Assembly (NCBI RefSeq): GCF_025398335.1
Contig: NZ_JAODOO010000023.1
Location: forward strand, 1-43,921
Source: Clostridium sp. CX1
GTDB lineage: Bacteria; Bacillota; Clostridia; Clostridiales; Clostridiaceae
Length of the DNA: 43,921 nucleotides
Reading direction: 5' to 3'
The translations under genes were made by a program, and so were the position numbers. Shown piece after piece: positions 8,368-32,045 of this stretch (positions are counted from its first letter, which is position 1; each line of letters starts with the position of its first letter). The notes below the pieces were generated by a model that worked only from the letters and a program-made list of their open reading frames with translations, was not told the DNA's origin and did not search any database.

Positions 8368-8420
8368 TAGAAATATCTTTACCTATATGATAAAATTATT
8401 TCAAGATTGAAATATTTTTA
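8368..8420 (+). promoter_or_regulatory. Promoter with palindromic MarR-type operator, duplicated at 29294-29350
   Basis: TAGAAATAT sits in the -35 position, followed by 10 nt and then ATGATAAAATTATTTCA, which includes an extended -10 (TGA then TAAAAT). A 4-nt spacer and the inverted half TGAAATATTTTT follow. The -35-like element, the spacing and the 17-nt block are identical to those before the MarR gene at 29363. The palindrome overlaps the -10, so a bound repressor would block RNA polymerase. It should drive the three TolC-like genes. Confidence 0.7.
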
Positions 8421-8539
8421 CCCACCAGGAAATATTATGAATGCAAACAATATTAATGAACATGTTACTGTAATAGGATTTTTTATAGTATTTAAAACAG
8501 TAATTCCAGAATAACTAATTTAGGAGGTATAAAACTAAA

Positions 8540-9607
8540 ATGAAAAAAATAAGGTTACTCTGTACCGCTGCAGTAATGACTATAATACTTTCTTCTGCAA
8601 CTTTTGTACAAGCAGCAGGAACCACACTGGATATAGATAGTATTACAAGTAAGGCTATTGAAAGTTCATACCAATTAAAAAGTATAGATATATCCATTGA
8701 AAAGGCTAAAAACACTTTAAAGGATGCTACTAGAGGAGCAGGAAAAGGTAACGCAGATATAGAGGTAAAGTACAGCATATATGAATATACAAACCTAAAG
8801 GAAGCTGCAAAAAACTCAATAAAGCTTAATATGCAGACTCAATATTCGTCCTTTATAAATACTAAAGAAGCATTAGACTTAGAAACACAGGAATTTCAAA
8901 ATACAGAATCAAAATATAAAAGAGCACAGCTTCAATTAAGCTTAGGTACTATAAGCAGAAATGAGTTTAAAACTATGGAGCAGTCTTATTATGACGGAAA
9001 AGCTCAGTTAAATAAAGCTCAAAGAAAGTTTGACTCAACTACAAAGACTATAAATCAGGCTTCTGGTTTAAGTCTAAATGATACATATACTGGTTTTACA
9101 AAGGATATAATTACAGATACCACAAATATAAAGACTTATAATGATTATTTAAATGATGCTTTACAAAATAGAGTAGAAATCTTAAATGATAATGAAAAAA
9201 TTAAACTGAAAAAATTAGAATTTGCTGGTATCAGAGGTGCTAACCCCTACAATAATTCCCCAGAATATATAATTGGGAAGTATGGTGTAACGGAGGCGGA
9301 AAATAAACTAGAGACAGATAAAATAGATATATCTATAGAGATAAATGGACTATACAATGACTTACAGAGTAAGATCCAAAAATTGCAGCCTCAAAAAGAA
9401 AACTATAATGCTGAAAAGAAAAAATATGATCAAGCTCTACAAAAATATAATTTAGGAATGATTAGTAAAATAGATTTTCAAGATCAATCAGCAGCTTTTA
9501 AAGCAGCAGAGAATTCTCTAAAGCTAGCGCAAAGAGATGTAGCTTTAGCAAAATTAAAACTTGAATATGCATCTGGATTAGGGACAAACTCTTTAAGTAG
9601 CAACTAA
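8540..9607 (+). CDS. TolC-family secreted coiled-coil protein (first of three)
   Basis: The 355-residue protein has a Sec signal peptide (residues 1-26, ending VQAAG). Two long helical hairpins follow, in the layout of TolC/OEP repeats (helices at about 30-155 and 225-345). The hairpin-turn phrase occurs in both halves (LSLGTISRNEFKTMEQ and YNLGMISKIDFQDQSA), showing the internal duplication of the family. In TolC about 60-70 residues between the first helices form beta-barrel strands. Here that stretch is only about 20 residues with little beta character, so a barrel is unlikely. It is first in a three-gene operon behind the shared operator. It probably acts outside the membrane as a periplasm-like adaptor or conduit for an exporter, but this is an inference. 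Confidence 0.7.
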   Translation: MKKIRLLCTAAVMTIILSSATFVQAAGTTLDIDSITSKAIESSYQLKSIDISIEKAKNTLKDATRGAGKGNADIEVKYSIYEYTNLKEAAKNSIKLNMQTQYSSFINTKEALDLETQEFQNTESKYKRAQLQLSLGTISRNEFKTMEQSYYDGKAQLNKAQRKFDSTTKTINQASGLSLNDTYTGFTKDIITDTTNIKTYNDYLNDALQNRVEILNDNEKIKLKKLEFAGIRGANPYNNSPEYIIGKYGVTEAENKLETDKIDISIEINGLYNDLQSKIQKLQPQKENYNAEKKKYDQALQKYNLGMISKIDFQDQSAAFKAAENSLKLAQRDVALAKLKLEYASGLGTNSLSSN

Positions 9608-9634
9608 AACTAATACAAGGCAGGAGGCAAAATC

Positions 9635-10843
9635 ATGAAAAAAAAGTTAAGTTTCTTAATTGCTTTAGCAATTTCTTTGAGCGTAAATACTGCAGCATTT
9701 GCGGATGCAGCTATTCCAGCTGAATCTGGTAATATAAACACTATATCCACTAGTGATACAATAAACCTAACTCTAGAGGACGCACTAAATAGTGTAGAAA
9801 AAAATAATACTGAATTAAAACTTATGAAGGATAAAATAAATTCTTTAAATAAGCAGTTTGATATAGATCATAACTATGCTACAACTATAGATACTAACAA
9901 GATGGGTAGTATAGAGCGTCTTACAAATCAATATTTGCAAGCTAAAATGCTTCAGGAAATTGTACCTTTAAATGATGTGCAGAAAATAAAGGATGCAAAA
10001 AACTCTAGAGATGAAAGAATAAATGTAATAAAATTTGATCTTCAAAGACATTATTTGAATGTATTAAATTCCAGAAGTCAGATAGATAACATAAATAAGA
10101 CTATAGCTAATATAGACGAGAAGATCAAACAAACTGAAGAAAAGATAAAGGTTGGTCAGGCAACTGCTAATTCATTAGACCCTTTAAATGTCCAAAAAAG
10201 TCAGCTTTACTCTCAAATTAGAAACATTGAAGACCAGACAGATCAATCATTGTTAACTATAAAACAGTATCTTAACATAGATTTAAATAAGAATTTAAAT
10301 TTATCTTCTGTAAAAAAGGATTTTGTTAAAATTGATGACAAGGATATAGCTAGCAAAATTAATGAAGCAGCTAGTAAAGATTATACACTAAGTTCACTTA
10401 AGGCAAATATGGACATTGTAAAGAAACAAAATGAGTTATATTCTAAGTATTCCCACAATGCTCCTTCAGGTGAAAATACAAGTAAATCTACTTTAGCAGG
10501 TTTACAAACTCAATTAATTACTGTGAATACTGGTATACCACAAACTTTGTGGAATTCATACTACAGCTTAAAGAGTAAAGAAAATGCAATTCAGACACAG
10601 ATACTTACAGAACAGAGTGCACAGGATGCCTATGATAAGGCAAAGAAAAATTTTGAGGTTGGAATGACAGATAAAGTAACTGTAGACTCAGCAGCCTTAG
10701 AATTAGATAAGCAAAAAAGTATAACTGAGAGAACTGTAAATGAGTACATGGTAGCTCAAGAGGAGTTTAAATACATGTTAGAGGGGCATTCTTTAACAAA
10801 GATGCCTACTCAGTCTATGGGAGTTTCAGGTATAGGATACTAG
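9635..10843 (+). CDS. TolC-family secreted coiled-coil protein (second of three)
   Basis: Starts 27 nt after the first gene with GGAGG in front. The signal peptide ends around AAFADA. The mature 402-residue product opens with the family phrase LTLEDALNSVEKNNTELKL, followed by long helices with the hairpin segments KVGQATANSLDPLNVQKSQL and FEVGMTDKVTVDSAALELDK, one per repeat. The place where TolC carries barrel strands is occupied by a short Thr/Asn-rich stretch and then helix-forming sequence. It is close to the third gene across the whole length, so the two arose by duplication. Its role is unknown. The operon suggests that the three proteins assemble together or with an exporter. Confidence 0.7.
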   Translation: MKKKLSFLIALAISLSVNTAAFADAAIPAESGNINTISTSDTINLTLEDALNSVEKNNTELKLMKDKINSLNKQFDIDHNYATTIDTNKMGSIERLTNQYLQAKMLQEIVPLNDVQKIKDAKNSRDERINVIKFDLQRHYLNVLNSRSQIDNINKTIANIDEKIKQTEEKIKVGQATANSLDPLNVQKSQLYSQIRNIEDQTDQSLLTIKQYLNIDLNKNLNLSSVKKDFVKIDDKDIASKINEAASKDYTLSSLKANMDIVKKQNELYSKYSHNAPSGENTSKSTLAGLQTQLITVNTGIPQTLWNSYYSLKSKENAIQTQILTEQSAQDAYDKAKKNFEVGMTDKVTVDSAALELDKQKSITERTVNEYMVAQEEFKYMLEGHSLTKMPTQSMGVSGIGY

Positions 10844-10871
10844 ACTAACAATTAAGTATGGAGGAATATTT

Positions 10872-12017
10872 ATGAAAAAGAAACTAGGTTTTTTAGTTGC
10901 AATTGCCATTTCCCTAAACGTAACAACTACTTGTTTTGCAGAAGCGGCACCTGTGCAAAATAATGCAGTACAAATAACATTAGAACAGGCTATTGGTAGT
11001 TTAGAAAGTAATAATGAAGAGTTAAAAAATATAGATAGCCAAATAGAGGCAGCAAAGAAACAATATGATTGGGATAATCAACAGTCTATATCCATATCTT
11101 TAGGTAAGGGTGAGGCTCAATACGGTCCTGGTCAATATTTACAGGCAGTAATACAAAGGGACTTAACTCCATTAAACGATCAGAAGAAAATAGATGACAC
11201 AAAAAATTCTAAGGATGAAAGATTAAATAACATAAAGTTTGACTTGGAAAAGCAGTACATGAAGGTTTTAACCTCTAAGCAGCAAATAGATAATATTAAT
11301 AAATCTATATCAACTATAGACGCACAAATGAATCAGATTGAACAAAAAATAAAACTAGGACAGGCAACTAAAGATGAATTAAATCCATTAAAGGTAAAGA
11401 GGAATACATTGTTGTCAACAATAAATGGACCACATATTCAAATGGAGGTTTCATCTTTAGCCGTAAAAAAATATTTAAATATTGATTTCAATAGTGAATT
11501 AAGCTTAGCTCCTGCTAAAAAAGAATTTGCTAAGTTCGATGACACTGATATAGAAAAGAAAATATCTGCAGCTGCTGAAAAAGACTACAACTATGGAAGT
11601 CTTCAAAAGACTACAGAGCTTTCTAAAAAACAATTAGATATATATAAAAAGTATGTTTACGACTCTGTAACAGAGCCAATGAACTCAGAGTTAACTGTAA
11701 AAGATAACGAAAATAAATTAGTGGATACGTCTACTTCAACAGAGGTAAGTCTATGGAATTCCTACTATAACTTAAAAAACAAAGAAGATGCTGTTCAAAC
11801 TCAAAATACAGCACTAGAAGTTGCTCAATTGAGCTATGACAAAGCAAAAGAGAGTTTTAATAATGGATTAATAGACAAGGTAACTTTAGACTTAGCTGAG
11901 CTAAATTTAAATAACCAAAGGGTTACTACTGAAGATGCAATAAATGATTATATGATTGCTCAGGAGCAATTTAAGTATTTGCTAGATGGTCATGCTTCTT
12001 CTGGGACTATAAATTAG
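10872..12017 (+). CDS. TolC-family secreted coiled-coil protein (third of three)
   Basis: Begins 28 nt after the second gene behind GGAGGAAT. The signal peptide (about 1-25, ending CFAEA) closely matches that of its neighbour. The 381-residue protein repeats the same pattern: ITLEQAIGSLESNNEELKN, the segment KLGQATKDELNPLKVKRNTL, then FNNGLIDKVTLDLAELNLNN, ending in YMIAQEQFKYLLDGH, which is nearly the same as the second protein. As in the other two, no stretch looks long enough for outer-membrane barrel strands. Three paralogues could form a hetero-oligomer, since TolC itself is a trimer. A terminator follows. Confidence 0.7.
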   Translation: MKKKLGFLVAIAISLNVTTTCFAEAAPVQNNAVQITLEQAIGSLESNNEELKNIDSQIEAAKKQYDWDNQQSISISLGKGEAQYGPGQYLQAVIQRDLTPLNDQKKIDDTKNSKDERLNNIKFDLEKQYMKVLTSKQQIDNINKSISTIDAQMNQIEQKIKLGQATKDELNPLKVKRNTLLSTINGPHIQMEVSSLAVKKYLNIDFNSELSLAPAKKEFAKFDDTDIEKKISAAAEKDYNYGSLQKTTELSKKQLDIYKKYVYDSVTEPMNSELTVKDNENKLVDTSTSTEVSLWNSYYNLKNKEDAVQTQNTALEVAQLSYDKAKESFNNGLIDKVTLDLAELNLNNQRVTTEDAINDYMIAQEQFKYLLDGHASSGTIN

Positions 12018-12435: not shown

Positions 12436-15400
12436 TTGATTAGATTAAGAAAAAACAGACTTTTAGTATTCTTTACACTCTTGTCTTTTATCTTCAATAT
12501 TTTTTCAGTAGCTATGGAGAGTAAGGTAAAGGCAGCTGAAAATGACAGCAGCTTTGACGTACAGTGTATAGTAGATAAAAGCGAGGTTTATATTGGAGAT
12601 GAATTTACTTATACTATAAAGTACAGATATGCTAACACCACTACAGCTGCAGCGTTTGTGGCCATAACAGATGAGCTTCCGGAAAATGTAAAGTATATTT
12701 CTTCTATTACTTCGCCAGATATAGAGTCAGTAACAACAGGGGCGAGCATTAGTGGACGAGATGTGATAACCTTTAACTTCAAAGAAGTAAATGGAATACC
12801 AGGATATTTAAAGGACGGTACAACTGGTTTTGTTAAGATTACAGCTAAGTTTCAAGAGGGGACACCTTTAGCAACGGACTCCTATAAGGCAGAAAACTTT
12901 GCAACAATTAAAGGCTCTATTGACGGTACTGAGAAAGAGATAACAAGTAATATTGTCACTGTAACTCCAAAAGTAAATAAACCAGATTGGAAAGTAACTA
13001 AAACTAGAGTAATTCCATCAGGGGTTGAGCCTGCTGTAGGATATCCTGTAACCTATAGGATAGATGTTATTGGTAATAGTAAAATTGGAGGGTTAAATCT
13101 TGAAAATGTAACCTTGGTTGATAGTATTCCAGAAGGAGCTAAATACATTTCTTCCTCTGATGATGGGAAGTATGATGAGGAAAGTAGAAAGGTTACTTGG
13201 GATATAGGAGATTTGCCAGTTGGTACTTCTCAAAGCAGAACCATAACTTTGATTTATTCACGCTCTGTGAGCTCAGTAACCAATACAGCACAGGCTTCGG
13301 GAAACCTCCTTGGAAGTAATGAAGTAATAACTCAAAGCGGTGAAGCCCAACATGGTTTTACTAAACCTACTATGTCTGTAGGCGACTTCAGTAAATATGG
13401 CAGACAGGCAGATGATAGATATTCCGCAGGTCAGACAGCTAAGTTTTGGATAGGTGGAATTGAAAATACGGGAAATATTTCTATAGACAAAATTCAGATA
13501 GTGGATGATATATCAGAAGACTTGGAGCTAAAGTCTGTAAGTACTGGGGCTTATAGTGGGAAAGGGACTGTAGAGGTACAGTATAAGATAACTAAAAATA
13601 CAACGGGAAGTGGAATCGAAAGCGGGAATACAACAGAAACACCAAATCAAAGTGAAAATGGTGACTGGATTACATGGGCAGAAACACCAGTTGATGCTGA
13701 TACTAATAAGGTTTTAAATGTAAATAATGATATGAAGCTTGAACCAGGAGATAAAATTTCTGTAAGATGGGTAATAACAAATGTTTCAAATGACCCAGAA
13801 GCATTACAGGGAATCGAAGCTGGCTTTAAAAATACTACTCCAATAGCTATAGAAGCTAAAGTTAAGCAGCCTGCATCAGGAAACACTATAACTAATATTG
13901 CAACCCTTAAAGCGTCAAAGAAGGACCTTACTGATATTGTAAAAAGCTCAAGAAAGACTATTTCTGTTATAGCTCCGATGCCTTGGTTAGTTCCAGAGAA
14001 AACTGTAAAAAATGGACAGGTTAAGTTCAATATGAATGATACCGTTGAATATAACTTGACTATAAAGAACCATCAGTTTGCAACTGGAGATTATGTAAAT
14101 CCAATAGCTATTGATGTACTTCCAGAGGAAATGGAGGATGTTAAGTTTTTAGCCTGGGATAAGGGCAATACTAGTATCACTAGAGGAGCTGAACCGGATA
14201 CAATAGAACCTAGAACTATTGATGGAAAGAACTGTCAGATACTAAGGTGGAATATTGCAGGAACACTTAAACCCGGTGAGTATGTAAAGATTAGATTTAC
14301 TGCAAAAATAAAGGATAAAACTTTAGCAGGAAAAGTTAAAAATAATTTTTATATTACTACAAACGATTCAAGTGAGTTTGAAAATTCCCCTAGTGAATTG
14401 ATAAAAGATGCAGGGAACTTAGACGGAGATTCTAGCACTTCCGATAATTTGATTTTAGTAAGTAGGGATATATTTGTAAGCTTTGTTGGCAGTGTTAAGT
14501 CTGAAAAATTGGTTAAAGGTGAGCTAGATGATAACTGGAATAAATATGATGAAACTAAGAGACATGGATATACCTTACCAGGCGGTATTGCAGATTATAG
14601 GTTAAAGATAAAGAACACTGATGCTAACGGACCTATAAGTAATCTCGTTTTTATTGATATTCTGCCTTATGTTGGTGACAAGGGAGTAATTGATACTAAA
14701 AATAGAGAAAGTGAGTGGAGACCTTATCTTGTAAATAAGATAACCGGTGAAGACAACGGACCTATAAGAATAAAAGGCAAAAATGGGGAGAAAGACATAA
14801 GTAAAAGTGTTAAGATTTATTATAACACCAAGGAAAACCCATCAACACTGGAGTTAACTGATTCTATAAATAATAAAAAGTTAAGTGACGGTGGATGGTC
14901 AGAAACACCGCCAAGTGATATTACAACCGTTAAATCATTGAAGTTTGACTTTGGTGATATAAAATTGCAGTCAGATGAAGAGATAACCTTAGAATGGCCA
15001 ATGAGAGCTCCTTACGCTGCACCAACAGGAAAAATTGCATGGGGTTCCTTTGGATATGGAGCAACCTACCCTGATGTAAATGGACAGGAACCTTTTCTTC
15101 CTTCTGAACCTAAAAAAGTAGGTTTTGAGGTGCAACCTGATCCAAATGAAAAATATTATATTGGAGACCGTGTGTGGGAGGATAAGAATAAGGACGGTAT
15201 ACAGAATGATGGAGATACCGGTATAAACGGGGTTTTGGTGAGATTACACAAATATAATAATGTAATTTCAGACTATGAGTACACTGGTAAGTATACTAGA
15301 ACTGGATATAGCTACGTAACAGGAGAAACTGGACACCCAGGATACTACGAATTTCCTAATTTAAGCCCAGGAAAGTATAAGGTTCAGTTTGTTTTCCCTA

Positions 15401-18400
15401 AAGATTATAAGGTTACGCTCTATAAAAAAGGAGCAGACATAGGACTAGATTCTAATATAGACAAAGGAGCAAGTGGGGGAAATATAACAGACTATGAAGA
15501 CAACGGTACTACTAAATCTTCAATAATGAGTGACGAAATAGTTATAGTTGACAAAAATGATTTTTCTTCAGATGCAGGTTTATATCGATTGGCATCTATT
15601 GGAGACAAGGTTTGGAATGATAAAAATATGAATGGCATACAGGATTTAGATGAGTCTGGTATAAAAGGTGTGGTAGTGAATCTTCTACAAGTGAATCCTC
15701 TAAATGGCGAGATAACTCAAGCACAGTATGAAGATGGAAGAGCTGTACCGCCCTATGTGACAGATGAAAAGGGAAATTATAATTTTACAGGTTTAGAGCC
15801 AGGAACTTATAAGGTTCAGTTTACAAATCCAAATGGTGATTATAAGTTCACTAAGGCAGATGTAGTAAGCAGTGATAAAGACATTGATGCAAATGACAGC
15901 GACGCAGTAGTCTCATCCGATGGCTTGACAGCGACATCCTCTGCAATAACCTTAGATTCTGCAGGAAGTGATATGACTATTGATGCGGGAATGTACCTTG
16001 CACAAATTGGAGATACTGTGTGGCATGATAAAAATGCAAATGGAACTCAAGATGAAACAAATGCAGGAATATCAGGAGTTGAGGTAAGTCTCCTTAACGA
16101 AGATGGAGCTGATGCAGAAGATGTACATGGTAATAATGTACCTAAAGCTACTACAAATTCCAGTGGTGAATATCTTTTTGACAACTTAAAACCAGGGAAG
16201 TATATAGTAAAGTTTGAAAAACCAACAGGTTATGATAAGTTTAGTGAAAAAGATGCAGAGGGCAATGTTACAGACATCACCAAAGACAGTAATATAGACA
16301 GCGATGCAGATAAAACCACAGGAAAAACCTCAGTGATAACTTTGTCTGCTGGTGAAAGAAATATGGATATAGATGCAGGACTGTATAAACTAGCTTCTGT
16401 AGGAGATTTTATCTGGGACGACAAAAATGCCAACGGAATACAAGATGAAGCAAATATTCAAGGGGTTAAAGGTGTTGAAGTAAAGCTTCTAAGTAAATCA
16501 AAAGATAATTCAATAAGTGAAGCTAAGCATGATGATGGTACTACAGTTTCAGCTATTACTACAGAGACAGATGGAGAGTATTTATTTGACAAGCTTAAGC
16601 CTGGTATCTATATAGTTCAATTTACTAATAAAAATAGCAGCTTTAAATTTAGTGATCGACAGCAAGGAGAAAAGGATGCTGAAGATAGTGATGCTGTAGT
16701 AGGAGCAGATGAGTCTGTGGCTACAGCAGAGATTGTTTTAAATTCAGAAGATAACAATATAACCATTGATGCTGGACTTCACAAGGCTCTAATTGGAAAC
16801 AAAGTATGGCTTGATGTAAACGGTAATGGAGTTCAAGATGCTAAAGAAGAAGGCATAGCAGGAGTTAAAGTTGAACTTTTAGACAAAGATGGTAATGCTG
16901 TAAAGGTTGGAGGGAACCCTCTTACTTCCATAACGGATTCAAAGGAGGATTCAAAGGGTATATATGAATTTAATGACCTAGAAGCAGGAGACTATAAGGT
17001 TAAATTCACCTTACCGGAAGGCTATAATTTTACAAGGCTAAATACTACATCTGCGGCAATAGATAGTGATGCAGACTTTGCAACAGGTATAACTAGAACC
17101 ATTAACCTATTAGCAGGACAGATAGACAAAAGCTGGGATGCAGGAATATATGTGCCTGCTAGACTAGGTGATTTTGTATGGCTAGATAAGAACAGTTTAG
17201 ATAAAGATACTAAAGGCATTCAAGATGCAGGAGAGCCTGGTATTGAAGGTGTAACTGTAAAGCTTTTAGATAAGGATAGTAAACCTGCTAAGTATGGTGA
17301 TGGTACAGTTATTCCAGATGCTGTTACAGACAGCCAAGGAAAGTACAGTTTCACAAATCTAGTGCCGGGAGCCTATATAGTGCAGTTTCAAAAAGCAAGT
17401 TACTATAATTATACAGAGAAAGATAAAGGGAATGATATTGGAGATAGCGACAATACAGATAGTGATGCAGATACAGCTACAGGAAAAAGTAAGGTTGTAG
17501 TGCTTAAGTCTGGAGATAGAAACGACAGTATTGATGCAGGATATACGTTAACTACAGGTATGAGCTTGGCAAAAGATGTATATTTGGGTCATGATGAAGG
17601 TAAGGGAGTAGGTTTGGATAGTGTAAAAGGTGAGGAAGGAACTGCTATAACTTACTTATTCACAGTAAAAAACACTGGTACTTCCTATTTAAATAACTTA
17701 GACATTATTGATAACGAACTTCATATCAATAAATCTAGTATGAAACAAGTCAGCGGCAAAGAGCCAATAGCACCAGGAGAAACGGCGGTGTATTATTATG
17801 AAACAACCATTAATAATGATTTAACTAATACAGCAACAGCTTCAGCATACCCTAGTGATGATAAGGGAAGCTTAATTCCTAATGGAGATAAGGTCTTTTC
17901 CCAGCAAGGCACTGCAGTTATAGGTGAGCTAATATCATCAATGAAGGTAGAAAAAACTGTATATGCTGGTCATGATAAGGGTAATCAAAGTGGTGGAGAG
18001 TTGGTAGTAGGCGAAGGAGGTATTGATATAACCTATGTCTTTAAAATAACCAATACAGGAAATGTACATTTGAAGGATATAGCTATTAAAGATTTAAATA
18101 TTAAAGATAATGGTGTTGAAATTGATAAGTCAAAAATGATTTACAAAGGAAGAAGTAAAATCGGGGAAGATAAAGATGTACCTCTAGGACTTAATGAAAG
18201 TATAACCTATTACTATGAAACCACTATTAATGGAGATTTAAAAAACACAGTAAAGGTTGTAGGAATACCAAGTAATGAGTTAGGAAAGGATATTTCTTAT
18301 GTAAGCAAAGCTGAAGCAACAGACGATGCAAAGGTAGATGAAGTAAAACCTTCAATCTCTGTAGAAAAGACAGTATACAATGGCCATGACAGCGGGAAAG

Positions 18401-19686
18401 GTACGGGAGTAGAAGTGGTATCAGGTAAGATAAACACTGATGTAACCTACTTATTTACTGTAAAAAACACTGGAGATACTATTTTAGATGACATAACAAT
18501 TGATGATACAGCCTTAGGGATTGATAAAACAAAACTTACTAAGTTAAGTGGAACTGAGCCTTTAACAACTGGTGCTGCTATTGTTTACTATTATGAAGGC
18601 AAGATTAATGGCAATTTAATAAATACTGTACAGGTAAGCGGAAAACCAGTAGATGATAAAGGTGATGCTGTTCCAAATACTCATAATCCACAAGCAAAAG
18701 ATACTGCAGAAGTAAAGCTTTCAGCTTCTCTTGGAGACTATATCTGGGCAGACACAAATATCAATGGCAAGCAGGACCCAGAAGAAAAAGGAATACCAAA
18801 GGTTAAAGTTATACTTACAGATTCAAAAGGCAATACAAAATCCACTGTCACCGATGACAATGGAAAGTATCTCTTCGACGACTTAATGCCTGGCCCTTAT
18901 ACTGTAACTATAGACAGAACCACAATACCAGCTGGAATGGCAGCCTCTTATGAATTAGATATCACATTAGATAATAAGGTTAATGTAACTTTATCTAGTA
19001 ATCAATTTAAAGACGATGTAGATTTTGGATACTATACTCCATCATCTGGAGGCGGTGTTCCTATAGTATATAAACTAGCCTCTGTAGGAGATTATGTATG
19101 GTATGACAAAAACGGCGATGGTAAACAGGGCTTAACTGAAAAAGGTATACCAAAGGTAGTGCTTACTTTAAAAGACAAGAATGGAAGAACTGCTACTGCC
19201 ACTACTGATGATAATGGTAAGTACCTTTTTGAGAAACTAATGCCGGGAACCTATACCATAGCTTTAGATCCAAATACTTTACCGGAAGGCTTTAAGGAAA
19301 CTTGGGAGTTAGATAACAGTTTAAATGAGGAAGTATCTGTAACCTTAGCCTACAATGATGTTAAAGAGGATGTAGACTTTGGATACAATAAGTCAGGAAT
19401 TAATATTGATGATGATAAAATTCCTGGCGGTCCTTCAGAAAATCCACCGGATAAACCAGCACCAGAGGATAAGCCGGGGATTGATATTGAAGATGATAAA
19501 ACACCAGGGTCTCCAGCAGATACACCGACAGATAAGGGAACAAAACCTCCAAAGGATACAAAGAACCTAGGGGATAGCAGCTTACCTAAAACAGGAACAG
19601 AAAACTTTAACCTGTTGCTTTTAGGTATAGTTTCTTTAACTGGAAGCGGGTTATTTATACTAAGGAGAAGACGTAGGGATAAGTAG
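12436..19686 (+). CDS. Giant sortase-anchored adhesin with DUF11 and SdrD B-like domains (LPKTG)
   Basis: The TTG start follows GGGGGG by 5 nt, and a signal peptide (residues 1-33, ending VKAAEN) begins there. The 2416-residue product carries N-terminal DUF11-like modules (about 40-900; DKSEVYIGDEFTYTIKYRY type). Six SdrD B-like domains start near residues 908, 1054, 1190, 1322, 1454 and 1577 (IGDxVWxDKNxNGxQD signature). Three DUF7507-like repeats (VYxGHDxGxG, then YLFTVKNTG) lie at about 1714-2095, and two more SdrD B domains start near 2099 and 2217. A Pro-rich linker (about 2322-2380) leads to LPKTG near 2383, a membrane helix and RRRRR. The Asp/Asn-rich loops suggest calcium-stiffened rods. 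A class D sortase gene lies 2.7 kb downstream. Expression should rise with c-di-GMP through the upstream riboswitch. Confidence 0.9.
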   Translation: MIRLRKNRLLVFFTLLSFIFNIFSVAMESKVKAAENDSSFDVQCIVDKSEVYIGDEFTYTIKYRYANTTTAAAFVAITDELPENVKYISSITSPDIESVTTGASISGRDVITFNFKEVNGIPGYLKDGTTGFVKITAKFQEGTPLATDSYKAENFATIKGSIDGTEKEITSNIVTVTPKVNKPDWKVTKTRVIPSGVEPAVGYPVTYRIDVIGNSKIGGLNLENVTLVDSIPEGAKYISSSDDGKYDEESRKVTWDIGDLPVGTSQSRTITLIYSRSVSSVTNTAQASGNLLGSNEVITQSGEAQHGFTKPTMSVGDFSKYGRQADDRYSAGQTAKFWIGGIENTGNISIDKIQIVDDISEDLELKSVSTGAYSGKGTVEVQYKITKNTTGSGIESGNTTETPNQSENGDWITWAETPVDADTNKVLNVNNDMKLEPGDKISVRWVITNVSNDPEALQGIEAGFKNTTPIAIEAKVKQPASGNTITNIATLKASKKDLTDIVKSSRKTISVIAPMPWLVPEKTVKNGQVKFNMNDTVEYNLTIKNHQFATGDYVNPIAIDVLPEEMEDVKFLAWDKGNTSITRGAEPDTIEPRTIDGKNCQILRWNIAGTLKPGEYVKIRFTAKIKDKTLAGKVKNNFYITTNDSSEFENSPSELIKDAGNLDGDSSTSDNLILVSRDIFVSFVGSVKSEKLVKGELDDNWNKYDETKRHGYTLPGGIADYRLKIKNTDANGPISNLVFIDILPYVGDKGVIDTKNRESEWRPYLVNKITGEDNGPIRIKGKNGEKDISKSVKIYYNTKENPSTLELTDSINNKKLSDGGWSETPPSDITTVKSLKFDFGDIKLQSDEEITLEWPMRAPYAAPTGKIAWGSFGYGATYPDVNGQEPFLPSEPKKVGFEVQPDPNEKYYIGDRVWEDKNKDGIQNDGDTGINGVLVRLHKYNNVISDYEYTGKYTRTGYSYVTGETGHPGYYEFPNLSPGKYKVQFVFPKDYKVTLYKKGADIGLDSNIDKGASGGNITDYEDNGTTKSSIMSDEIVIVDKNDFSSDAGLYRLASIGDKVWNDKNMNGIQDLDESGIKGVVVNLLQVNPLNGEITQAQYEDGRAVPPYVTDEKGNYNFTGLEPGTYKVQFTNPNGDYKFTKADVVSSDKDIDANDSDAVVSSDGLTATSSAITLDSAGSDMTIDAGMYLAQIGDTVWHDKNANGTQDETNAGISGVEVSLLNEDGADAEDVHGNNVPKATTNSSGEYLFDNLKPGKYIVKFEKPTGYDKFSEKDAEGNVTDITKDSNIDSDADKTTGKTSVITLSAGERNMDIDAGLYKLASVGDFIWDDKNANGIQDEANIQGVKGVEVKLLSKSKDNSISEAKHDDGTTVSAITTETDGEYLFDKLKPGIYIVQFTNKNSSFKFSDRQQGEKDAEDSDAVVGADESVATAEIVLNSEDNNITIDAGLHKALIGNKVWLDVNGNGVQDAKEEGIAGVKVELLDKDGNAVKVGGNPLTSITDSKEDSKGIYEFNDLEAGDYKVKFTLPEGYNFTRLNTTSAAIDSDADFATGITRTINLLAGQIDKSWDAGIYVPARLGDFVWLDKNSLDKDTKGIQDAGEPGIEGVTVKLLDKDSKPAKYGDGTVIPDAVTDSQGKYSFTNLVPGAYIVQFQKASYYNYTEKDKGNDIGDSDNTDSDADTATGKSKVVVLKSGDRNDSIDAGYTLTTGMSLAKDVYLGHDEGKGVGLDSVKGEEGTAITYLFTVKNTGTSYLNNLDIIDNELHINKSSMKQVSGKEPIAPGETAVYYYETTINNDLTNTATASAYPSDDKGSLIPNGDKVFSQQGTAVIGELISSMKVEKTVYAGHDKGNQSGGELVVGEGGIDITYVFKITNTGNVHLKDIAIKDLNIKDNGVEIDKSKMIYKGRSKIGEDKDVPLGLNESITYYYETTINGDLKNTVKVVGIPSNELGKDISYVSKAEATDDAKVDEVKPSISVEKTVYNGHDSGKGTGVEVVSGKINTDVTYLFTVKNTGDTILDDITIDDTALGIDKTKLTKLSGTEPLTTGAAIVYYYEGKINGNLINTVQVSGKPVDDKGDAVPNTHNPQAKDTAEVKLSASLGDYIWADTNINGKQDPEEKGIPKVKVILTDSKGNTKSTVTDDNGKYLFDDLMPGPYTVTIDRTTIPAGMAASYELDITLDNKVNVTLSSNQFKDDVDFGYYTPSSGGGVPIVYKLASVGDYVWYDKNGDGKQGLTEKGIPKVVLTLKDKNGRTATATTDDNGKYLFEKLMPGTYTIALDPNTLPEGFKETWELDNSLNEEVSVTLAYNDVKEDVDFGYNKSGINIDDDKIPGGPSENPPDKPAPEDKPGIDIEDDKTPGSPADTPTDKGTKPPKDTKNLGDSSLPKTGTENFNLLLLGIVSLTGSGLFILRRRRRDK

Positions 19687-22393: not shown

Positions 22394-23005
22394 ATGAAAA
22401 AAGATAGGATTGTTTATAGAGGGGCTATAGGTATATTTTTAATATCCATATTAGTAATAGCCTATGCTTCTTATCAAATTATATATAGTAAAAATAAAGT
22501 TAAGAAAAACTTAGGAATCTTAGATAGTATTGAAAGGGATAAAAATATAAAGAATAGTAGCGGTGACACGGGTAGTAATCAAACTAAAGTGCAGGAGGAC
22601 ATTTATAGTAACCATGGAATTATGGGCAAGCTCATTATAGAAAGAACTAAAAAGGTATTGCCAATAGTTGAGGGCACCACTGAAGATAAGCTGAAAAGCG
22701 GTGCTGGACATTATGAGCACTCTTTTGCCCCTGGTGAAAGTGGAAATTGTGTCATATTTGGTCATAGAGATGGAGTTTTTTCAAATCTAGAAGAAGTGAA
22801 AATAAATGATATTATAACTATTGAAACGGACAAGGGCAAGTTTATCTATAAGGTTATCAGCACTGAAATAACTGAACCTAAGGAAGAAGAAGTTATTAAA
22901 GAGTGCAATGAAGCTATGCTCACATTAGTAACTTGTTATCCTTTTGGATATGTAGGGTCAGCACCAAAAAGATTTATTGTAGTTGCAAAGTTAGGATTTA
23001 AATAA
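22394..23005 (+). CDS. Class D sortase
   Basis: A membrane-anchored transpeptidase that cuts LPxTG-type signals and links the protein to peptidoglycan. Residues about 11-31 form the N-terminal membrane helix, followed by a Ser/Asp-rich linker and the sortase barrel (about 75-203). The catalytic residues are His124 (FGHRDGVF), Cys181 (TLVTCYPFGYVGSAP) and Arg193 (KRFIV). The TLVTC-YPFGY-APKR spelling is typical of class D enzymes. The length is normal and the ribosome binding site is AAGGAG. The nearby LPKTG adhesin is the obvious substrate, the only LPxTG protein in this window. An extended -10 (TGG TATTAT at 22354-22362) may give it its own promoter. Confidence 0.9.
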   Translation: MKKDRIVYRGAIGIFLISILVIAYASYQIIYSKNKVKKNLGILDSIERDKNIKNSSGDTGSNQTKVQEDIYSNHGIMGKLIIERTKKVLPIVEGTTEDKLKSGAGHYEHSFAPGESGNCVIFGHRDGVFSNLEEVKINDIITIETDKGKFIYKVISTEITEPKEEEVIKECNEAMLTLVTCYPFGYVGSAPKRFIVVAKLGFK

Positions 23006-23926: not shown

Positions 23927-23992
23927 ACATGTTTACTATTTATGTGTTAATAATAAATATATAAAATTTTGAGAACTTTGGAGGAGAATCAG

Positions 23993-24490
23993 GTGGCGAA
24001 CAAAGAAAAGAAGGACTTATCTCATTTAATAAGCAATAGTCCCGTAGAAATTGATTCAATGAGATTAATTGAAATAATTATTAGAATAGGGGATTTAATA
24101 GAGCAGGTATTCGATAAGTTCTACAAAACTTATAAATTATCAAAGCCGCAATTTACTGCTCTTTATAGAATTTATCTAACTGGAGAGGATGGAATTGCTT
24201 TATCTGTTCTTGGAGATCAAATGTCTGTAACAAGAGCTAATATAACATCTCTAGTTGATAGAATGGTTTCAAGGGGATTGATAAAGAGAATTACCAATGA
24301 GAATGATAGAAGAAGTATAAATGCGGTAATAACAGAGGAAGGAAAAGAGATTTTAGAGAAGGTATTACCGGACAAGGAAGAACTTACTTCAGAGGTGTTG
24401 AATTTTCTATCAGGTAATGAGAGGGAGCATTTTTATGAACTACTCATAAAAGTGGAAAAATACTTGATTGCAAATTATTTTAACAAATAG
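23993..24490 (+). CDS. MarR-family transcriptional regulator (upstream of the ABC-2 export genes)
   Basis: The GTG at 23993 is chosen because GGAGGAG ends 6 nt before it. A TTG further upstream lacks a site and would sit before the ribosome binding site. The 165-residue protein has the MarR layout: an N-terminal dimerisation helix, then a winged helix-turn-helix at about 55-125 (KPQFTALYRIYL, LSVLGDQMSVTRANITSLVD, RGLIKRITNENDRRSINAVI) and C-terminal dimer helices. It is first in a likely operon with the adaptor and two permeases, so it probably represses them and itself until a ligand binds, as with MarR proteins beside drug exporters. Confidence 0.85.
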   Translation: MANKEKKDLSHLISNSPVEIDSMRLIEIIIRIGDLIEQVFDKFYKTYKLSKPQFTALYRIYLTGEDGIALSVLGDQMSVTRANITSLVDRMVSRGLIKRITNENDRRSINAVITEEGKEILEKVLPDKEELTSEVLNFLSGNEREHFYELLIKVEKYLIANYFNK

Positions 24491-24545
24491 AAGCACAGGC
24501 TATTTTAGCTTCATAAGCAGCTAATATTATACAGGGGGGTTTTTC

Positions 24546-25598
24546 ATGAAACGCAAAAATATTGTACTAGCAACATCTTTATTAACAATGGTAAGTCTTT
24601 TTACAGCATGCTCCACTAATGTACGCAGTTTAACAGGAGATAAAGTAATAAAGCAAAGTAATGGACACCTAACAGTTCAAGGAAATGTAGAAACTAAAGA
24701 GGTAAATATAAATTCCAAAACCTCAGGAAGAATAACAGCAATAAATATAAAAGAAGGAGACAACGCTAAAGGTGGACAAGTTTTGATAACTATCGACAAT
24801 AGCACTCTGCAAGCAAAAGAGGCTCAGACAGAGGCCCAAATTCAAGCAGCTACAGGGCAGAAAAAGGCAGCAGAAGCAGCAAAACAGGCAGCGGAGGCAG
24901 TACTTCAAAAGGCAAAAAATGGAGCAAGACCAGAAGAACTTGCACAGCTTAAGGCTCAATATGATTTAGCTAAAGTAACTTATGATAGAGTAAAGGCATT
25001 ATCTGATCAGGAATTTGTACCACAGGCTGATCTTGATAAGGCTCAGACTCAGCTTGAACTGGCAAAACAGCAGTATGACCTTGCTAAAAATGGTGCTAGA
25101 GCAGAGGACATAGCTGCAGCACAGGCTCAAGTAAGTCAAGCAGAATCTACAATACAGGCAGCTGAAGGACAAATTAAGCAGGCCCAAGGTGGATTAAGTG
25201 AGGTTCAGACGTATATTAATGATACTACTATAACTGCACCATTAGACGGAATAATAACTCAATTAAATGTTGAAGTTGGAGAGTTAGTAACTCCAGGAAT
25301 GCCTCTTGTTGTATTAACGAATACAGCTGCACCTTGGATTGAGTGCAATGTGAAGGAAACAGACCTTTCAAAGGTTAAGTTAAATGGAGAGGTTTCTGTA
25401 AAGTTCTCAGCTTATCCTAATCAGCAGTTTAAAGGAAAGATAGTCAGAATAAATGAAAAACCTGATTTTGCAGTTAAAAGAGCTACAAATGATAATGGTG
25501 AGTTTGATGTATTATCCTATGGTGTAAAAGTAGAGCTAACTAGTATAGATAAGCCACTTCATGCGGGAATGACAGCTATTGTTGACCTTGGAAAGTGA
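24546..25598 (+). CDS. HlyD/YbhG-type membrane-fusion adaptor, lipoprotein
   Basis: A 350-residue adaptor with a lipoprotein signal (hydrophobic core, LFTACST; Cys22 lipidated). The first lipoyl-like half is at about 40-80 (TVQGNVETKEVNINSKTSGR). A long Ala/Gln/Glu-rich coiled-coil hairpin spans about 85-220 with the duplicated phrase KNGARPEELAQ / KNGARAEDIAA. The second lipoyl half follows (ITAPLDGIITQLNVEVGELV), then a beta-barrel domain (WIECNVKETDLSKV onward). Such adaptors link an inner-membrane exporter to a TolC partner in Gram-negatives. Here it would sit on the outer face of the single membrane. It is followed 14 nt later by the two permease genes. Confidence 0.85.
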   Translation: MKRKNIVLATSLLTMVSLFTACSTNVRSLTGDKVIKQSNGHLTVQGNVETKEVNINSKTSGRITAINIKEGDNAKGGQVLITIDNSTLQAKEAQTEAQIQAATGQKKAAEAAKQAAEAVLQKAKNGARPEELAQLKAQYDLAKVTYDRVKALSDQEFVPQADLDKAQTQLELAKQQYDLAKNGARAEDIAAAQAQVSQAESTIQAAEGQIKQAQGGLSEVQTYINDTTITAPLDGIITQLNVEVGELVTPGMPLVVLTNTAAPWIECNVKETDLSKVKLNGEVSVKFSAYPNQQFKGKIVRINEKPDFAVKRATNDNGEFDVLSYGVKVELTSIDKPLHAGMTAIVDLGK

Positions 25599-25612
25599 TG
25601 TGAGAATTAATC

Positions 25613-26791
25613 ATGAATGAAAAGTTATTAAAGCTTATAGGTCTAGGTGTAAAAATTAAAAGCTTATTTTTTTCCTTCTTATTTGTACTTGGAATTCCTG
25701 TTATCTGCAGCTTTATATTAGGTTATCAAATGGAACATCACCAGATTCAACATATTCCAACGGCTATTGTAGACCATGACAATTCTCAATTTAGCCAAAT
25801 GCTTATCAAAGAAATAAAAACAAATGAAATATTTAATGTAACTAATTATAGCGATAGAGATGAGGATATTAAGACGCTAATAGAACAGGAGCAGATAAGA
25901 GTTGGAGTAATTATTCCAGAGAATTTTTCAAAGGATTTATTTAGTGGTAATGGACCTAGAGTACTTGTGTTTTATGATGGCTCACAAATGTCCGTTACCA
26001 GTGCTGCCAAGGCAAGAATGAGTGAAATTCTACTTAGCATTAAAACTGGATATTTAAAAAAGGTAGTGGAAGGAAAGCTAAACGTAATGCCTGAGGTATC
26101 TCAAAACTACGTTCTTCCAATGTATTTTAATTATAGACTTCTAAATAATCCAACTAGAAATTATATAAACTTTCTTATTCCAGGGATGATTATCTCTATT
26201 ATTCAGGTTAGTCTTGTAATGCTAGGAGTGGATATAGTTAGAAAAGATGAAAAAAGCTATTTGTGGCTGTGGCTTAAAGGGATCTTAGGAGGACTTTTCG
26301 GAGTGCTTTCTATAGGAATAAGTTTAGGAGTTCAGTTTAAGTATTTTGATGTACCCTTTAGAGGGACAGCAGAGGGAGCTATCATATTAACTCTTCTATA
26401 CTCTATAGGATTAGTAAGCTATGGTGTGTTAGTAAGAACTATTTTGCCAGATAAAATAGCTGCCTTGCAGGTAGGTGCAATATCCATTCTTCCAACAACT
26501 ATTTTAGCAGGTTTTACCTTCCCTGTTATGGGAATGCCAGTCTTCTTTCAGAAGTTATCAGAATATCTTCCATTCTTGCACTATGGGGAGACTATGAGGG
26601 ATTTGTGTTTAAAAAACATTGGAATGGAATATATTCTGCCTCAAATACACTGGTTATTTAAGTTTGTATTGTATATATGGGCAGCAACCTTTGCTATCTT
26701 TATGTTAAAGAAACTTGTTAAAAGAGAATATAATCGTATAAAAAGTAATAAAAATCAGCAGCAACAAGCTGAAGAGGTGATTCAAGCATGA
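25613..26791 (+). CDS. ABC-2 type transporter permease (first of pair)
   Basis: A 392-residue membrane protein of the ABC2_membrane_3/YhhJ-YbhR type. It has one helix at about 15-35, a large extracytoplasmic domain (about 40-185; TAIVDHDNSQFSQMLIKEI, then LIEQEQIRVGVIIPENFSKD) and five to six helices from about 188 to the end. The VDxDxS and IRVGVIIP phrases are typical. The ribosome binding site is weak, suggesting coupling to the upstream adaptor, and its 3' end overlaps the next gene by 4 nt. No ATPase is encoded in the operon although ABC-2 permeases need one, so it either borrows a subunit from elsewhere or works differently. Confidence 0.8.
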   Translation: MNEKLLKLIGLGVKIKSLFFSFLFVLGIPVICSFILGYQMEHHQIQHIPTAIVDHDNSQFSQMLIKEIKTNEIFNVTNYSDRDEDIKTLIEQEQIRVGVIIPENFSKDLFSGNGPRVLVFYDGSQMSVTSAAKARMSEILLSIKTGYLKKVVEGKLNVMPEVSQNYVLPMYFNYRLLNNPTRNYINFLIPGMIISIIQVSLVMLGVDIVRKDEKSYLWLWLKGILGGLFGVLSIGISLGVQFKYFDVPFRGTAEGAIILTLLYSIGLVSYGVLVRTILPDKIAALQVGAISILPTTILAGFTFPVMGMPVFFQKLSEYLPFLHYGETMRDLCLKNIGMEYILPQIHWLFKFVLYIWAATFAIFMLKKLVKREYNRIKSNKNQQQQAEEVIQA

Positions 26792-27972
26792 AGAAAAAGC
26801 TACCTTTTAGAGTTAGGCCAGTAACATTAAAGAACATTTTTTTACTTACCTTAGGACCAGTGCTTTTTATTTCTCTTTTAGGATTGGTTTTTAGTAAAAT
26901 TTTTGTTGAGGAAATTCCAATGGGGATTCTAGACATGGACAATTCCTCTATATCAAGAAATGTTGTGAAGCAGTTTGAAGAAACTTCAAAGTTTAAGGTT
27001 GTTTATCGTGCTCAGACTGATGAAGAGCTTAATGAAGCGATAAAGACAAAAAAAGTTAGTGTAGGGCTTATTATACCTCATAATTTTGCCAAGGATGCAA
27101 ATGCTATAAAAGCGCCTAAAACTTTATTATTGATAGATGAAACTAATATAGTAATAGGAAATAATGCTCTATCCTATGGAAGTGAAATATTAAATACTAT
27201 TAATGCTGGCATTCAGCTTAATGTTTTAGAGGCAAATAATATGGTGCCTTATGCAGCTCAAAAATCTATAGGAGCGCTATCCTTTACGGAAAGGATACTT
27301 TATGATCCCCAATTAAGTTATATGAGATACTTGCTTTATGCTATGATAGGAGCTGTTGTTCAGCAGGTGTATATTGGAGCCTTAGCACCAGTATTAATTG
27401 AAGAAAAACTAAGCATGGTAAAAATGAAGCTTCGTTCAAAGGAAGGAGTAAGAAAGCTGCTTAAAATTTCTTTGAAAATTTTAGTTTTTGCTACAATGGC
27501 AGCGGTGGGAGCTACTGGCAGCTTGTACGCAGCAGGAAAGTATTTTTATCTTCCTCTTAAGGGAAGCTTAATAGATTATTTTATTCTTCTTACCATATTT
27601 CTTTTAGATCTTACAGCCATATCCTTTGTTTTTGCCTTCGTATTTGATGCAATGGACCAATGCGTTCGGTTTAGTATGTTTTTATCTGTACCTACCTTCC
27701 TTACAGCTGGGTACGTATGGCCAGAGTATATGATGCCAGCAGGTTTCTTCAGTGTGGTAAAAAAGATATGGCCACTGGTGTACTTTATTAATCCGCTGAA
27801 GACTATGAATTTAAAGGGCGTAGATTTTGCTATTATTGCACCTTATGTACAGGGTGGAATATATTATGCACTATTTTGGCTGCCTCTAGGAGTAGGATTA
27901 TACTTATTTAAAATCTTTGGTTTTAAAGTTGTACAGAGAAAATTAATGAAGCCAAAGGAAAATGCAAGCTAA
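26788..27972 (+). CDS. ABC-2 type transporter permease (second of pair)
   Basis: Overlaps the previous gene by ATGA, so the two are translationally coupled. The 394-residue protein has the same plan: one N-terminal helix, an extracytoplasmic domain (about 45-175; MGILDMDNSSISRNVVKQF, then KKVSVGLIIPHNFAKD) and a C-terminal bundle of about six helices. It is clearly paralogous to its partner, so the pair probably forms a heterodimer. The substrate is unknown; membrane-active or hydrophobic compounds are likely from the family and the MarR context. A strong terminator follows. Confidence 0.8.
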   Translation: MKKKLPFRVRPVTLKNIFLLTLGPVLFISLLGLVFSKIFVEEIPMGILDMDNSSISRNVVKQFEETSKFKVVYRAQTDEELNEAIKTKKVSVGLIIPHNFAKDANAIKAPKTLLLIDETNIVIGNNALSYGSEILNTINAGIQLNVLEANNMVPYAAQKSIGALSFTERILYDPQLSYMRYLLYAMIGAVVQQVYIGALAPVLIEEKLSMVKMKLRSKEGVRKLLKISLKILVFATMAAVGATGSLYAAGKYFYLPLKGSLIDYFILLTIFLLDLTAISFVFAFVFDAMDQCVRFSMFLSVPTFLTAGYVWPEYMMPAGFFSVVKKIWPLVYFINPLKTMNLKGVDFAIIAPYVQGGIYYALFWLPLGVGLYLFKIFGFKVVQRKLMKPKENAS

Positions 27973-28215: not shown

Positions 28216-28335
28216 AAACTAGTAAAATATAATGTAGAAATAGGTATAGTTACTATCGAAGTTTGTAAGTAAGGTCTTTTATTAAGTAGTAACTATTGTG
28301 AAAGTATATTAATGAGAGAAACTTGGAGGTATAAA

Positions 28336-29205
28336 ATGGAAAAGAAAAAGCAAGAAGCTAATAGCAGTGGAAGTGTAAATAATGATAAAACATATGTGTC
28401 TACGGTACTTTCACTTTTAGAGCATGATGAAAATGTAATGTCTGATGTTCAAAAAGAAATCTTAGAAGAAGAAATAGCAGAGCTTCCAAAAATAGTTGAA
28501 GGACAACTTAATGTAACTGGTATCTATGCTTATGATCAAGGTGAAAAATTTGAAGTTAAAGCTTATATAAGAAATGGACTTTCAGAGAAGGTAATTTTAA
28601 GAAAGGTTCCTTTTTATATATTAAATTCTAAAGATGAGATTTTAGGTCAACAAATGTTTAATTTAGAATCTTTAGGTGAATTGCCACCACGTTCTGCAAG
28701 ACCAGTAAAGCTTTATTTTGAGAAGAAAAATATAAAAGTTGACACTATACCAATGGATGATTGGAAGCTAGCTTTCGATGCAAGATTAAAGGCTTCTAAA
28801 ACTGTTAGGGTTCAGTTTGAAGATCTGCCAGAGGATATAGATATAGCTGATAAGCTTGTTTATGATAACTTCTTAAATGAAATTCCTGAACTAAACGAAG
28901 GAGAAGTTTCTCTATCTACTTTTAGCGTAGGAATACAAAAGAATGGAAATATATTAGTTACACTAGTAGCAAGAAACGGAAACAATCAACCAATAAATAT
29001 AGAAAAAGTTCCTGTTACTTTAAAGGATCCTAATGGAACTGTTGTAAAGTCAGAGTTATTTAAGCTAAGTGACTTTACAATTAACCCTCTTAAGGCAAGA
29101 ATCTGCAACCTTATTTTCCCTACAGGAGTAAAGGTAGAAGAGGATACTGCTTTAAAGGATTGGACTGTATCCTTTAAACTAGAGGAACTTGGAAGTAGAA
29201 GTTAA
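28336..29205 (+). CDS. SLAP-domain protein (two tandem copies)
   Basis: The ATG at 28336 follows GGAGG by 7 nt. An in-frame ATG at 28312 has no ribosome binding site and would include this one in its coding sequence. The 289-residue protein holds two related beta domains of the SLAP (TIGR04398-like) family, about 55-160 (EGQLNVTGIYAYDQGEKFEV, then PPRSARPVKLYF) and about 185-285 (EGEVSLSTFSVGIQKNGNIL, then NPLKARICNLIF). Members are linked by name to S-layer or accessory Sec genes, but the function is not settled. No signal peptide or membrane helix is visible, so it is predicted to be cytoplasmic unless exported by a special route. Confidence 0.8.
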   Translation: MEKKKQEANSSGSVNNDKTYVSTVLSLLEHDENVMSDVQKEILEEEIAELPKIVEGQLNVTGIYAYDQGEKFEVKAYIRNGLSEKVILRKVPFYILNSKDEILGQQMFNLESLGELPPRSARPVKLYFEKKNIKVDTIPMDDWKLAFDARLKASKTVRVQFEDLPEDIDIADKLVYDNFLNEIPELNEGEVSLSTFSVGIQKNGNILVTLVARNGNNQPINIEKVPVTLKDPNGTVVKSELFKLSDFTINPLKARICNLIFPTGVKVEEDTALKDWTVSFKLEELGSRS

Positions 29206-29293: not shown

Positions 29294-29350
29294 TAGAAAT
29301 ATACTAAAATTCATGATAAAATTATTTCATAATTGAAATAATTTATCATG
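29294..29350 (+). promoter_or_regulatory. Promoter with 39-bp palindromic operator, duplicate of the 8368 site
   Basis: TAGAAATAT, 10 nt, then ATGATAAAATTATTTCA, TAAT, then TGAAATAATTTATCATG. The two arms are complementary over 17-18 bp with one base missing. The extended -10 (TGA TAAAAT) lies inside the left arm. It sits 13 nt before the MarR start, as expected for autoregulation. Element order, spacing and the 17-nt block are the same as at 8368-8403, upstream of the TolC-like operon. Confidence 0.75.
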
Positions 29351-29362
29351 AGAGGAAATATA

Positions 29363-29803: not shown

Positions 29804-29812
29804 TTATAAAGA

Positions 29813-29836
29813 AATCGTCAGAAATGACGATTTTTT
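29813..29836 (+). terminator. Terminator after the second MarR gene
   Basis: AATCGTCA pairs perfectly with TGACGATT over a GAAA loop, and the T tract follows directly. It separates the regulator from the MacAB-like operon. Confidence 0.85.
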
Positions 29837-29850
29837 GTTCATAAACTAAC

Positions 29851-29908
29851 AGTTAATAAATAGTTAAGAAAAAGTTAAGAAATATATACCACAAATGTAG
29901 ATTATAAT
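29851..29908 (+). promoter_or_regulatory. Activator-type promoter with three 11-bp direct repeats
   Basis: AGTTAATAAAT, AGTTAAGAAAA and AGTTAAGAAAT stand head to tail at 29851-29883, one helical turn apart. A perfect TATAAT lies at 29903-29908, while the -35 position (29880-29885) is AAATAT, overlapped by the last repeat. Direct repeats of this spacing replacing a -35 are the usual layout for OmpR/PhoP-type response regulators. It would drive the adaptor-ATPase-permease operon that starts at 30008. Confidence 0.6.
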
Positions 29909-32040: not shown

Positions 32041-32045
32041 GGACA

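Follow-up and report, generated by a model that had tools for sequence, protein, structure and literature searches.

We found that a promoter-operator module occurs in two copies, about 21 kb apart (8368-8414 and 29294-29340), in the window, i.e., the whole stretch of 43,921 nucleotides of Clostridium DNA that was analysed, and that it is a real, conserved regulatory element. Most likely, the module is the autoregulated promoter of a MarR repressor controlling export genes, and the operon of three tolC-like genes at the first site is now under trans control by the MarR protein encoded at 29363. The initial annotation had described two sites sharing their elements with an exact 10-nt gap and a 4-nt spacer, and this was borne out letter for letter. 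The layout at both sites is TAGAAATAT, 10 variable nucleotides, ATGATAAAATTATTTCA, 4 variable nucleotides and TGAAATA, the 33 defined letters being identical. The likeness of the copies extends beyond 8414 and 29340: 12 nt past the module, at 8427-8440 and 29353-29366, both sites carry AGGAAATAT[T/A]ATGA, which comprises a ribosome-binding site and a start codon. The features of the two sites and of the genes that follow them are as follows.

8368-8376, plus strand: -35 region of the tolC-operon promoter, TAGAAATAT (hexamer TAGAAA at 8368-8373); T[AG]GAAAT in 8/8 genus modules
8388-8396, plus strand: extended -10 element of the tolC-operon promoter, TGATAAAAT; TG[AG]TAAAAT in 8/8 genus modules
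8397-8414, plus strand: palindromic operator (predicted role) of the tolC promoter, TATTTCA-AGAT-TGAAATA; 7/7 arm positions pair
8427-8440, plus strand: ribosome-binding site and start codon, AGGAAATATTATGA, at the 12-nt offset also seen where marR is intact; proposed remnant of a marR since lost
8437-8514, plus strand: 25-codon open frame from the start codon at 8437, without significant similarity to marR coding sequence
8540-9607, plus strand: tolC1, OEP-family (TolC-like), first gene of the operon; Pfam OEP PF02321, E 5.4e-19
9635-10843, plus strand: tolC2, OEP-family; Pfam OEP, E 2.8e-10
10872-12017, plus strand: tolC3, OEP-family; Pfam OEP, E 1.7e-16
29294-29302, plus strand: -35 region of the marR promoter, TAGAAATAT, from the consensus scan
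29314-29322, plus strand: extended -10 element of the marR promoter, TGATAAAAT, from the consensus scan
29323-29340, plus strand: palindromic operator (predicted role) of the marR promoter, TATTTCA-TAAT-TGAAATA; 7/7 arm positions pair
29353-29366, plus strand: marR ribosome-binding site and start codon, AGGAAATATAATGA, at a 12-nt offset from the module
29363-29803, plus strand: marR, winged-helix MarR-family regulator of 146 aa, proposed binder of both operators; Pfam MarR PF01047, E 8.2e-14

A consensus scan placed at both sites a promoter made up of TAGAAA, a 17-nt spacer and TAAAAT with a preceding TG (9/12), which is of the extended -10 (housekeeping sigma) class, defined by a TG-N-TATAAT-like hexamer and, 16-18 nt upstream of it, a -35-like hexamer. 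Because the same scan finds such matches by chance too (7 vs 4.5 and 4 vs 3.4 in shuffles), this promoter call rests on conservation. Immediately 3' of the -10 lies the 18-bp palindrome TATTTCAnnnnTGAAATA, in which 7/7 arm positions pair at both sites, and which is likely an operator overlying the probable transcription start. The 17-nt block initially described as one element is an extended -10 that runs straight into the left arm of the operator; the 10-nt gap is part of the promoter spacer. We also observed a wider palindrome around each core, with 13/15 arm positions at 8389-8422 for the tolC site and almost all of the 17-nt arm, interrupted by a single gap, at 29313 for the marR site (29313-29349). 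By eye, the extension past the 18-bp core is greater in the window copies than in relatives, and the reverse strand scores in the profile search; a second dimer could fit the extended palindrome.

A scan of the whole genome for the module had been proposed in the initial annotation. When the 4.24-Mb genome was searched with the module pattern, allowing up to 3 mismatches, only the two known sites matched, and the reversed control pattern gave 0 matches. A profile built from 8 modules, both window copies included, gave E values of 3.2e-11 and 4.0e-9 for the two window modules (150 of 6007 first-look candidates scored); the next best match, at 0.0186, was the reverse strand of the tolC-site palindrome itself. 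Exact 17-mer pairs were at chance level, with 3 in the window vs a mean of 3.1 in order-3 Markov windows, and 2 of the 3 stemmed from a single self-matching hairpin (39310-39348); the 17-mer by itself was therefore rejected as a sign of significance. Over 33 letters, the best match among 17-mer-sharing pairs was 25 in 40 simulated windows, as compared with 33 observed. The palindrome alone, at up to 2 mismatches, was not enriched in the genome (117 vs 146 for the reversed control). Among the 8 next-best genomic palindromes (0-1 mismatch), 6 lay inside open reading frames and 2 were intergenic (C71:54818 and C8:50543), and by eye none of the 8 had TGRTAAAAT in front.

Conservation in the genus was assessed in 7 genomes, i.e., the window genome and six relatives, C. 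drakei (G001), C. muellerianum (G002), C. magnum (G003), C. carboxidivorans P7 (G004), C. thailandense (G005) and G006. The profile search, with 150 candidates scored in each genome, gave 8 strong modules (E 4e-9 or better), one per relative and two in the window genome, all at marR or tolC loci; below these came the decayed copy of marR-tolC in C. magnum, at 3.8e-4, and background set in at 0.01. The module stands directly before marR in 7/7 genomes and, as judged from this placement, is the conserved promoter of the marR gene. The order module-marR-tolC is found in 5/6 relatives (G001-G005), and in G006 a frameshifted marR comes after the module, ahead of macA-macB-macB. The five intact marR orthologues of the relatives show 37-49% identity to the window marR. 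The earlier remark that the elements are kept while the gap and spacer differ was upheld, and it applies across species too. Orthologues of macA lie elsewhere in C. thailandense (69%) and C. magnum (63%), and neither marR nor the module was seen in the 450 nt upstream of these two. On C. magnum contig 7 (L080 1-3700) we observed a second copy of marR-tolC, which is broken and has a decayed module; this suggests repeated duplication and decay of the marR-tolC unit in the genus.

A search of 206 family genomes with the operator part, allowing up to 2 mismatches, gave matches in 18, of which 7 belong to the genus and 11 to others. In G147, of a third genus, the module, marR, macA, macB, macB, tolC and tolC form one run. 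In three genomes of genus g2 (G164, G165 and G172; 3/13 of the g2 genomes examined), a variant module sharing 27-28/33 letters with the window copies stands directly before tolC, with no marR between. The other 7 of the 11 non-genus matches fell within unrelated genes or at their ends, or had no marR or tolC gene nearby. With a MarR profile (19 candidates scored per genome), the top tier, above 120 bits, comprised the genus, G147 and exactly G164, G165 and G172, the next best score being 99.7 bits. The g2 orthologues of this tier scored 126.7-129.4 bits and were present only in these three genomes, as compared with at most 95.7 bits for other g2 matches. They lie about 2 Mb from tolC in G172 and about 0.3 Mb in G164 and G165, and no module was found before them, so that autoregulation via this operator is not general. 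The arrangement of an operator before tolC with marR elsewhere is thus seen in two genera. Of the 12 modules compared in total, 8 immediately precede a marR orthologue (window, G001-G006 and G147), and 4 stand before tolC without marR (window, G164, G165 and G172).

In family members without the MarR orthologue, the tolC promoters (n=12) have TGRTAAAAT exactly in 9 and in a near form in 3. The in-register right arm TGAAATA was present in 12/12 promoters of orthologue-bearing genomes, including those of marR in the window, G006 and G147, vs 0/12 tolC promoters of genomes without the orthologue; these counts are not independent, as the genomes are related and fall into few clades, and 3 of the 12 promoters from orthologue-bearing genomes had been retrieved with a pattern that itself includes TGAAATA. 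In G166 and G169, TGAAATA is shifted out of register by one base, and the ranges of palindromy overlap, with 5-7 of 7 pairs with the orthologue vs 0-5 without it. This comparison excluded the tolC leaders of G006, G014 and G144, in which no TGRTAAAAT-like promoter was seen (for G014, the macA leader was viewed). In G014, macA-macB-macB, a response-regulator-like frame (by eye), tolC and tolC are adjacent. The pump and TolC-like genes travel together in G147, and by adjacency in G014. Matches to tolC1 occurred in 25/206 family genomes at E 1e-10 (10 candidates scored per genome).

The 29363 protein scored 51.7 bits with Pfam MarR PF01047 (cut-off 24.6), which places it among winged-helix MarR-domain proteins. 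It is below every NCBIfam equivalog cut-off among the models listed, so that no ligand is assignable to it. The palindrome in its own promoter is conserved among the marR orthologues (window, G001-G006 and G147). A PNSTxSV stretch, which by MarR-family architecture lies in the recognition helix, is present in 9/9 aligned MarRs of module-bearing genomes (window, G001-G005, G147, G164 and G172) and absent in 3 other aligned MarRs, i.e., the window MarR at 23969 and two lower-scoring g2 MarRs. The initial annotation had named the MarR at 29363 as the binder, and it is indeed the best candidate, given the 8/12 modules placed before its orthologue and the PNSTxSV stretch in 9/9. The MarR tree groups the window with G006 at only 82/84 and is weakly resolved, the broken G006 gene entering with its C-terminal part only. 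As a separate observation, the second window MarR gene heads an HlyD/ABC-2/ABC-2 exporter run (23969-27972), and in C. drakei and C. muellerianum that exporter directly follows marR-tolC, without a second MarR.

With respect to the descent of the copies, read from the spacers because these can drift more freely, the window tolC module agrees best with the C. carboxidivorans marR-tolC module (11/14 variable letters), and the window marR module is nearest to the marR-mac module of G006 (10/14 spacer letters); the two window copies agree with each other at 5/14 spacer letters and at 33/33 element letters. Recent duplication or gene conversion of the window copies was rejected, as their spacers agree at 5/14 and each is nearer a different relative. 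The identity of the window copies was also dropped as proof of co-evolution, and the letters of TAGAAATAT and ATGATAAAA are possibly ancestral because G147, of another genus, has the same letters. The window copies look old, like two descendants of one marR promoter, and given these spacer relationships, the window tolC operon would most simply have lost a former marR. The notion of one module controlling two loci was sound in that there is a promoter-operator at both, and needs amending in that the copies look like descendants of one marR promoter rather than a site set before two unrelated genes.

The window tolC operon has no marR of its own and has retained the module, the intact marR being at 29363. 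We infer the loss of marR before this operon from its leader and from the relatives, because no marR coding sequence is recognisable behind 8437 (p 0.13 to 0.99 for the whole stretch when matched to 8 marR genes). The short frame MNANNINEHVTVIGFFIVFKTVIPE looked marR-like by eye, yet was no better than shuffles against the 8 marR genes, and was rejected as a readable remnant. The three OEP (TolC-family) genes at 8540-12017 adjoin an S-layer-type (CWB2) gene, and a SLAP-type gene was seen within the examined stretch at 12/13 g2 tolC loci. The window also encodes a 2416-aa SdrD/SdrC-like surface protein with an LPXTG anchor (12436-19686; LPXTG model above its cut-off, SdrD far below), a small membrane-anchored frame, sortase-like by eye (22394-23005), and a protein with a SLAP domain, similar to the accessory Sec system S-layer assembly protein (28312-29205; 158.5 bits vs a cut-off of 250).

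No third copy of the module had been noticed by eye in the initial annotation; we found a decayed one before macA. The features downstream of marR are as follows.

29809-29836, plus strand: terminator-like hairpin 3' of marR (12-bp stem, 4-nt loop, U-rich 3' arm), -13.4 kcal/mol, z -5.0; called from folding energy and absent from the consensus-scan list
29916-29988, plus strand: third, decayed module copy in the macA leader, from repeat-finder family and matrix score
30008-31342, plus strand: macA, HlyD/MacA-type adaptor; Pfam HlyD_3, E 4.8e-11
31339-33260, plus strand: macB ATPase (31339-32040) and MacB permease (32046-33260); ABC_tran E 6.7e-35, MacB_PCD E 2.3e-38, FtsX E 1.3e-22

The repeat finder placed 29916-30008 in the same repeat family as the module, at 60% identity, and 53/73 letters of 29916-29988 equal those of the marR copy, in register through the ribosome-binding site. 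With a matrix trained on 6 relatives only, the third copy scored 17.4 bits, whereas simulated windows (n=100) reached at most 11.6 and shuffles of its intergenic region (n=2000) at most 6.2; this significance rests on the 73-nt stretch, a length chosen post hoc, because the 47-nt profile gave only E 0.13 in the window and the copy was not among the 37 matches listed for the genome. Its -35 region and right half-site are retained, and its -10 (TAAGCT), left half-site (TATGTAG) and start codon (ATC) are changed. The macA leaders of the window and G006 are alignable. Around macA of G006, G003 and G005, no equivalent of the third copy was found above -0.2, -0.6 and -10.4 bits, respectively, the G006 marR module aside.

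The 29294 module most likely drives marR alone, and not macAB directly, as the terminator-like hairpin would end marR. It is uncertain whether macAB in this genome is controlled via the damaged third copy, via read-through, or not by this system at all. The MarR had been expected to tie the TolC-like genes to the MacAB-like exporter: the single run in G147 suggests co-control, but in the window the link is indirect, with the hairpin after marR and a separate macA leader. The mac and tolC loci are separate in the window, being connected only by the module and its decayed copy. By eye, the macA leader also contains three GTTAA repeats 11 nt apart (29852, 29863 and 29874) upstream of TATAAT (29903), and TTAAG-like repeats are similarly placed before macA in G005 and G006. 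The repeats at 29852-29908 look like a PhoB/OmpR-type response-regulator site for macAB, distinct from MarR.

The observed sequence, conservation, gene order, co-occurrence and third copy can be brought together in a model in which MarR binding, repression and ligand release would proceed as follows. RNA polymerase would use the extended -10 promoter (TAGAAA, 17 nt, TAAAAT with TG), and a MarR dimer would bind the palindrome at the expected transcription start and block both promoters, until a ligand or signal frees the dimer and the marR product and three TolC-like proteins are made together. In most genus genomes examined, the promoter would drive marR and then the tolC genes. In the window lineage, the marR unit may have been present more than once; its tolC-side copy would have lost the coding sequence and kept the promoter, operator, ribosome-binding site and start codon, leaving the intact marR, 21 kb away, to control the tolC operon in trans as well as itself. 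A further copy of the unit, before macA, would have decayed.

Three other explanations were weighed against this model. The tolC module may be a relic, i.e., the leftover promoter of a deleted marR, which drives tolC while its operator has no present regulatory role and is kept by recency. The tolC leader does retain a ribosome-binding site and start codon at the place of marR, and the degraded marR-tolC copy in C. magnum indicates that such loss happens. However, the marR coding sequence has become unrecognisable and the spacers agree at 5/14, yet 33/33 element letters are identical to the marR copy, and the copy before macA shows the appearance of a decaying operator; we consider this explanation unlikely.

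It also appears improbable that both palindromes are bound by another regulator, be it a different MarR-like protein or an unrelated factor, as the 12 compared modules stand before this marR (8) or tolC1 (4), the latter all in orthologue-bearing genomes, and as the nearby MarR encoded at 23969 deviates from PNSTxSV. Such a regulator would nevertheless have a pool of candidates, the genome having 15 MarR-like matches (29363 included), and it would fit G164, G165 and G172, in which the module stands before tolC and the marR orthologue is remote, with no module found before it. The position of the inverted repeat, at or just behind the expected transcription start, would allow it to act within the RNA, at the 5' end, and not as a DNA site for a protein. 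Against this, its arms are 7 bp long and rich in A+T, part of the repeat should fall upstream of the start, and the few arm changes across the 8 modules affect one side only and are uncompensated, making an RNA-level role highly improbable. We thus prefer the model of an autoregulated marR promoter, with trans control of the tolC operon by the 29363 MarR.

The genus Clostridium is not expected to possess an outer membrane. One conjecture, which we put forward as a long shot, is that a single small regulon under MarR controls how TolC-family proteins are provided to a MacAB-type exporter, that the TolC-like conduits cross the wall and S-layer, and that loss of the local repressor turned cis control into trans control from the pump locus. 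If true, TolC-like conduits in a Gram-positive genus with S-layer-type proteins would span the wall and S-layer instead of an outer membrane. The module provides a regulatory handle on the Clostridium TolC-family proteins and connects them to a MacAB-type pump, with a defined operator and a defined candidate repressor. The loci also form a natural series, with the regulator in cis, the regulator lost and the operator decayed, in which to follow how the target of a repressor remains controlled once its local repressor gene has been lost.

In the Gram-negative systems EmrR (MprA)-emrAB and MexR-mexAB-oprM, a MarR-type repressor controls a tripartite exporter with a TolC-family channel. The pump class is different here, and the 29363 MarR scored 28 bits with the MprA model, as compared with a cut-off of 157. 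MacAB-TolC of E. coli resembles the present genes in having a MacA-type adaptor, a MacB ATPase and permease (MacB_PCD, FtsX) and OEP proteins, which form a single run in G147; it differs in that here the ATPase and permease are separate genes, and the tolC and mac loci of the window lie 18 kb apart. Among the open-licence papers listed, judged by titles and abstract openings, none treated this operator. A close parallel is with MarR-family efflux autorepressors: in PMC6401476, MarR dimers are described as reading palindromes via their recognition helix, and repression of the own gene and of an efflux pump as ancestral in the SlyA/RovA lineage. The present system is like these in its winged-helix MarR, the palindrome in its own promoter and its exporter neighbours. 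Unlike them, it concerns an exporter set that includes TolC-family proteins in Clostridium, and has one putative target operon that lacks a regulator and has retained the operator. Taken together, MarR autoregulation of export genes is of a kind already known, and what is new is the TolC-family target in Clostridium together with the lost local repressor.
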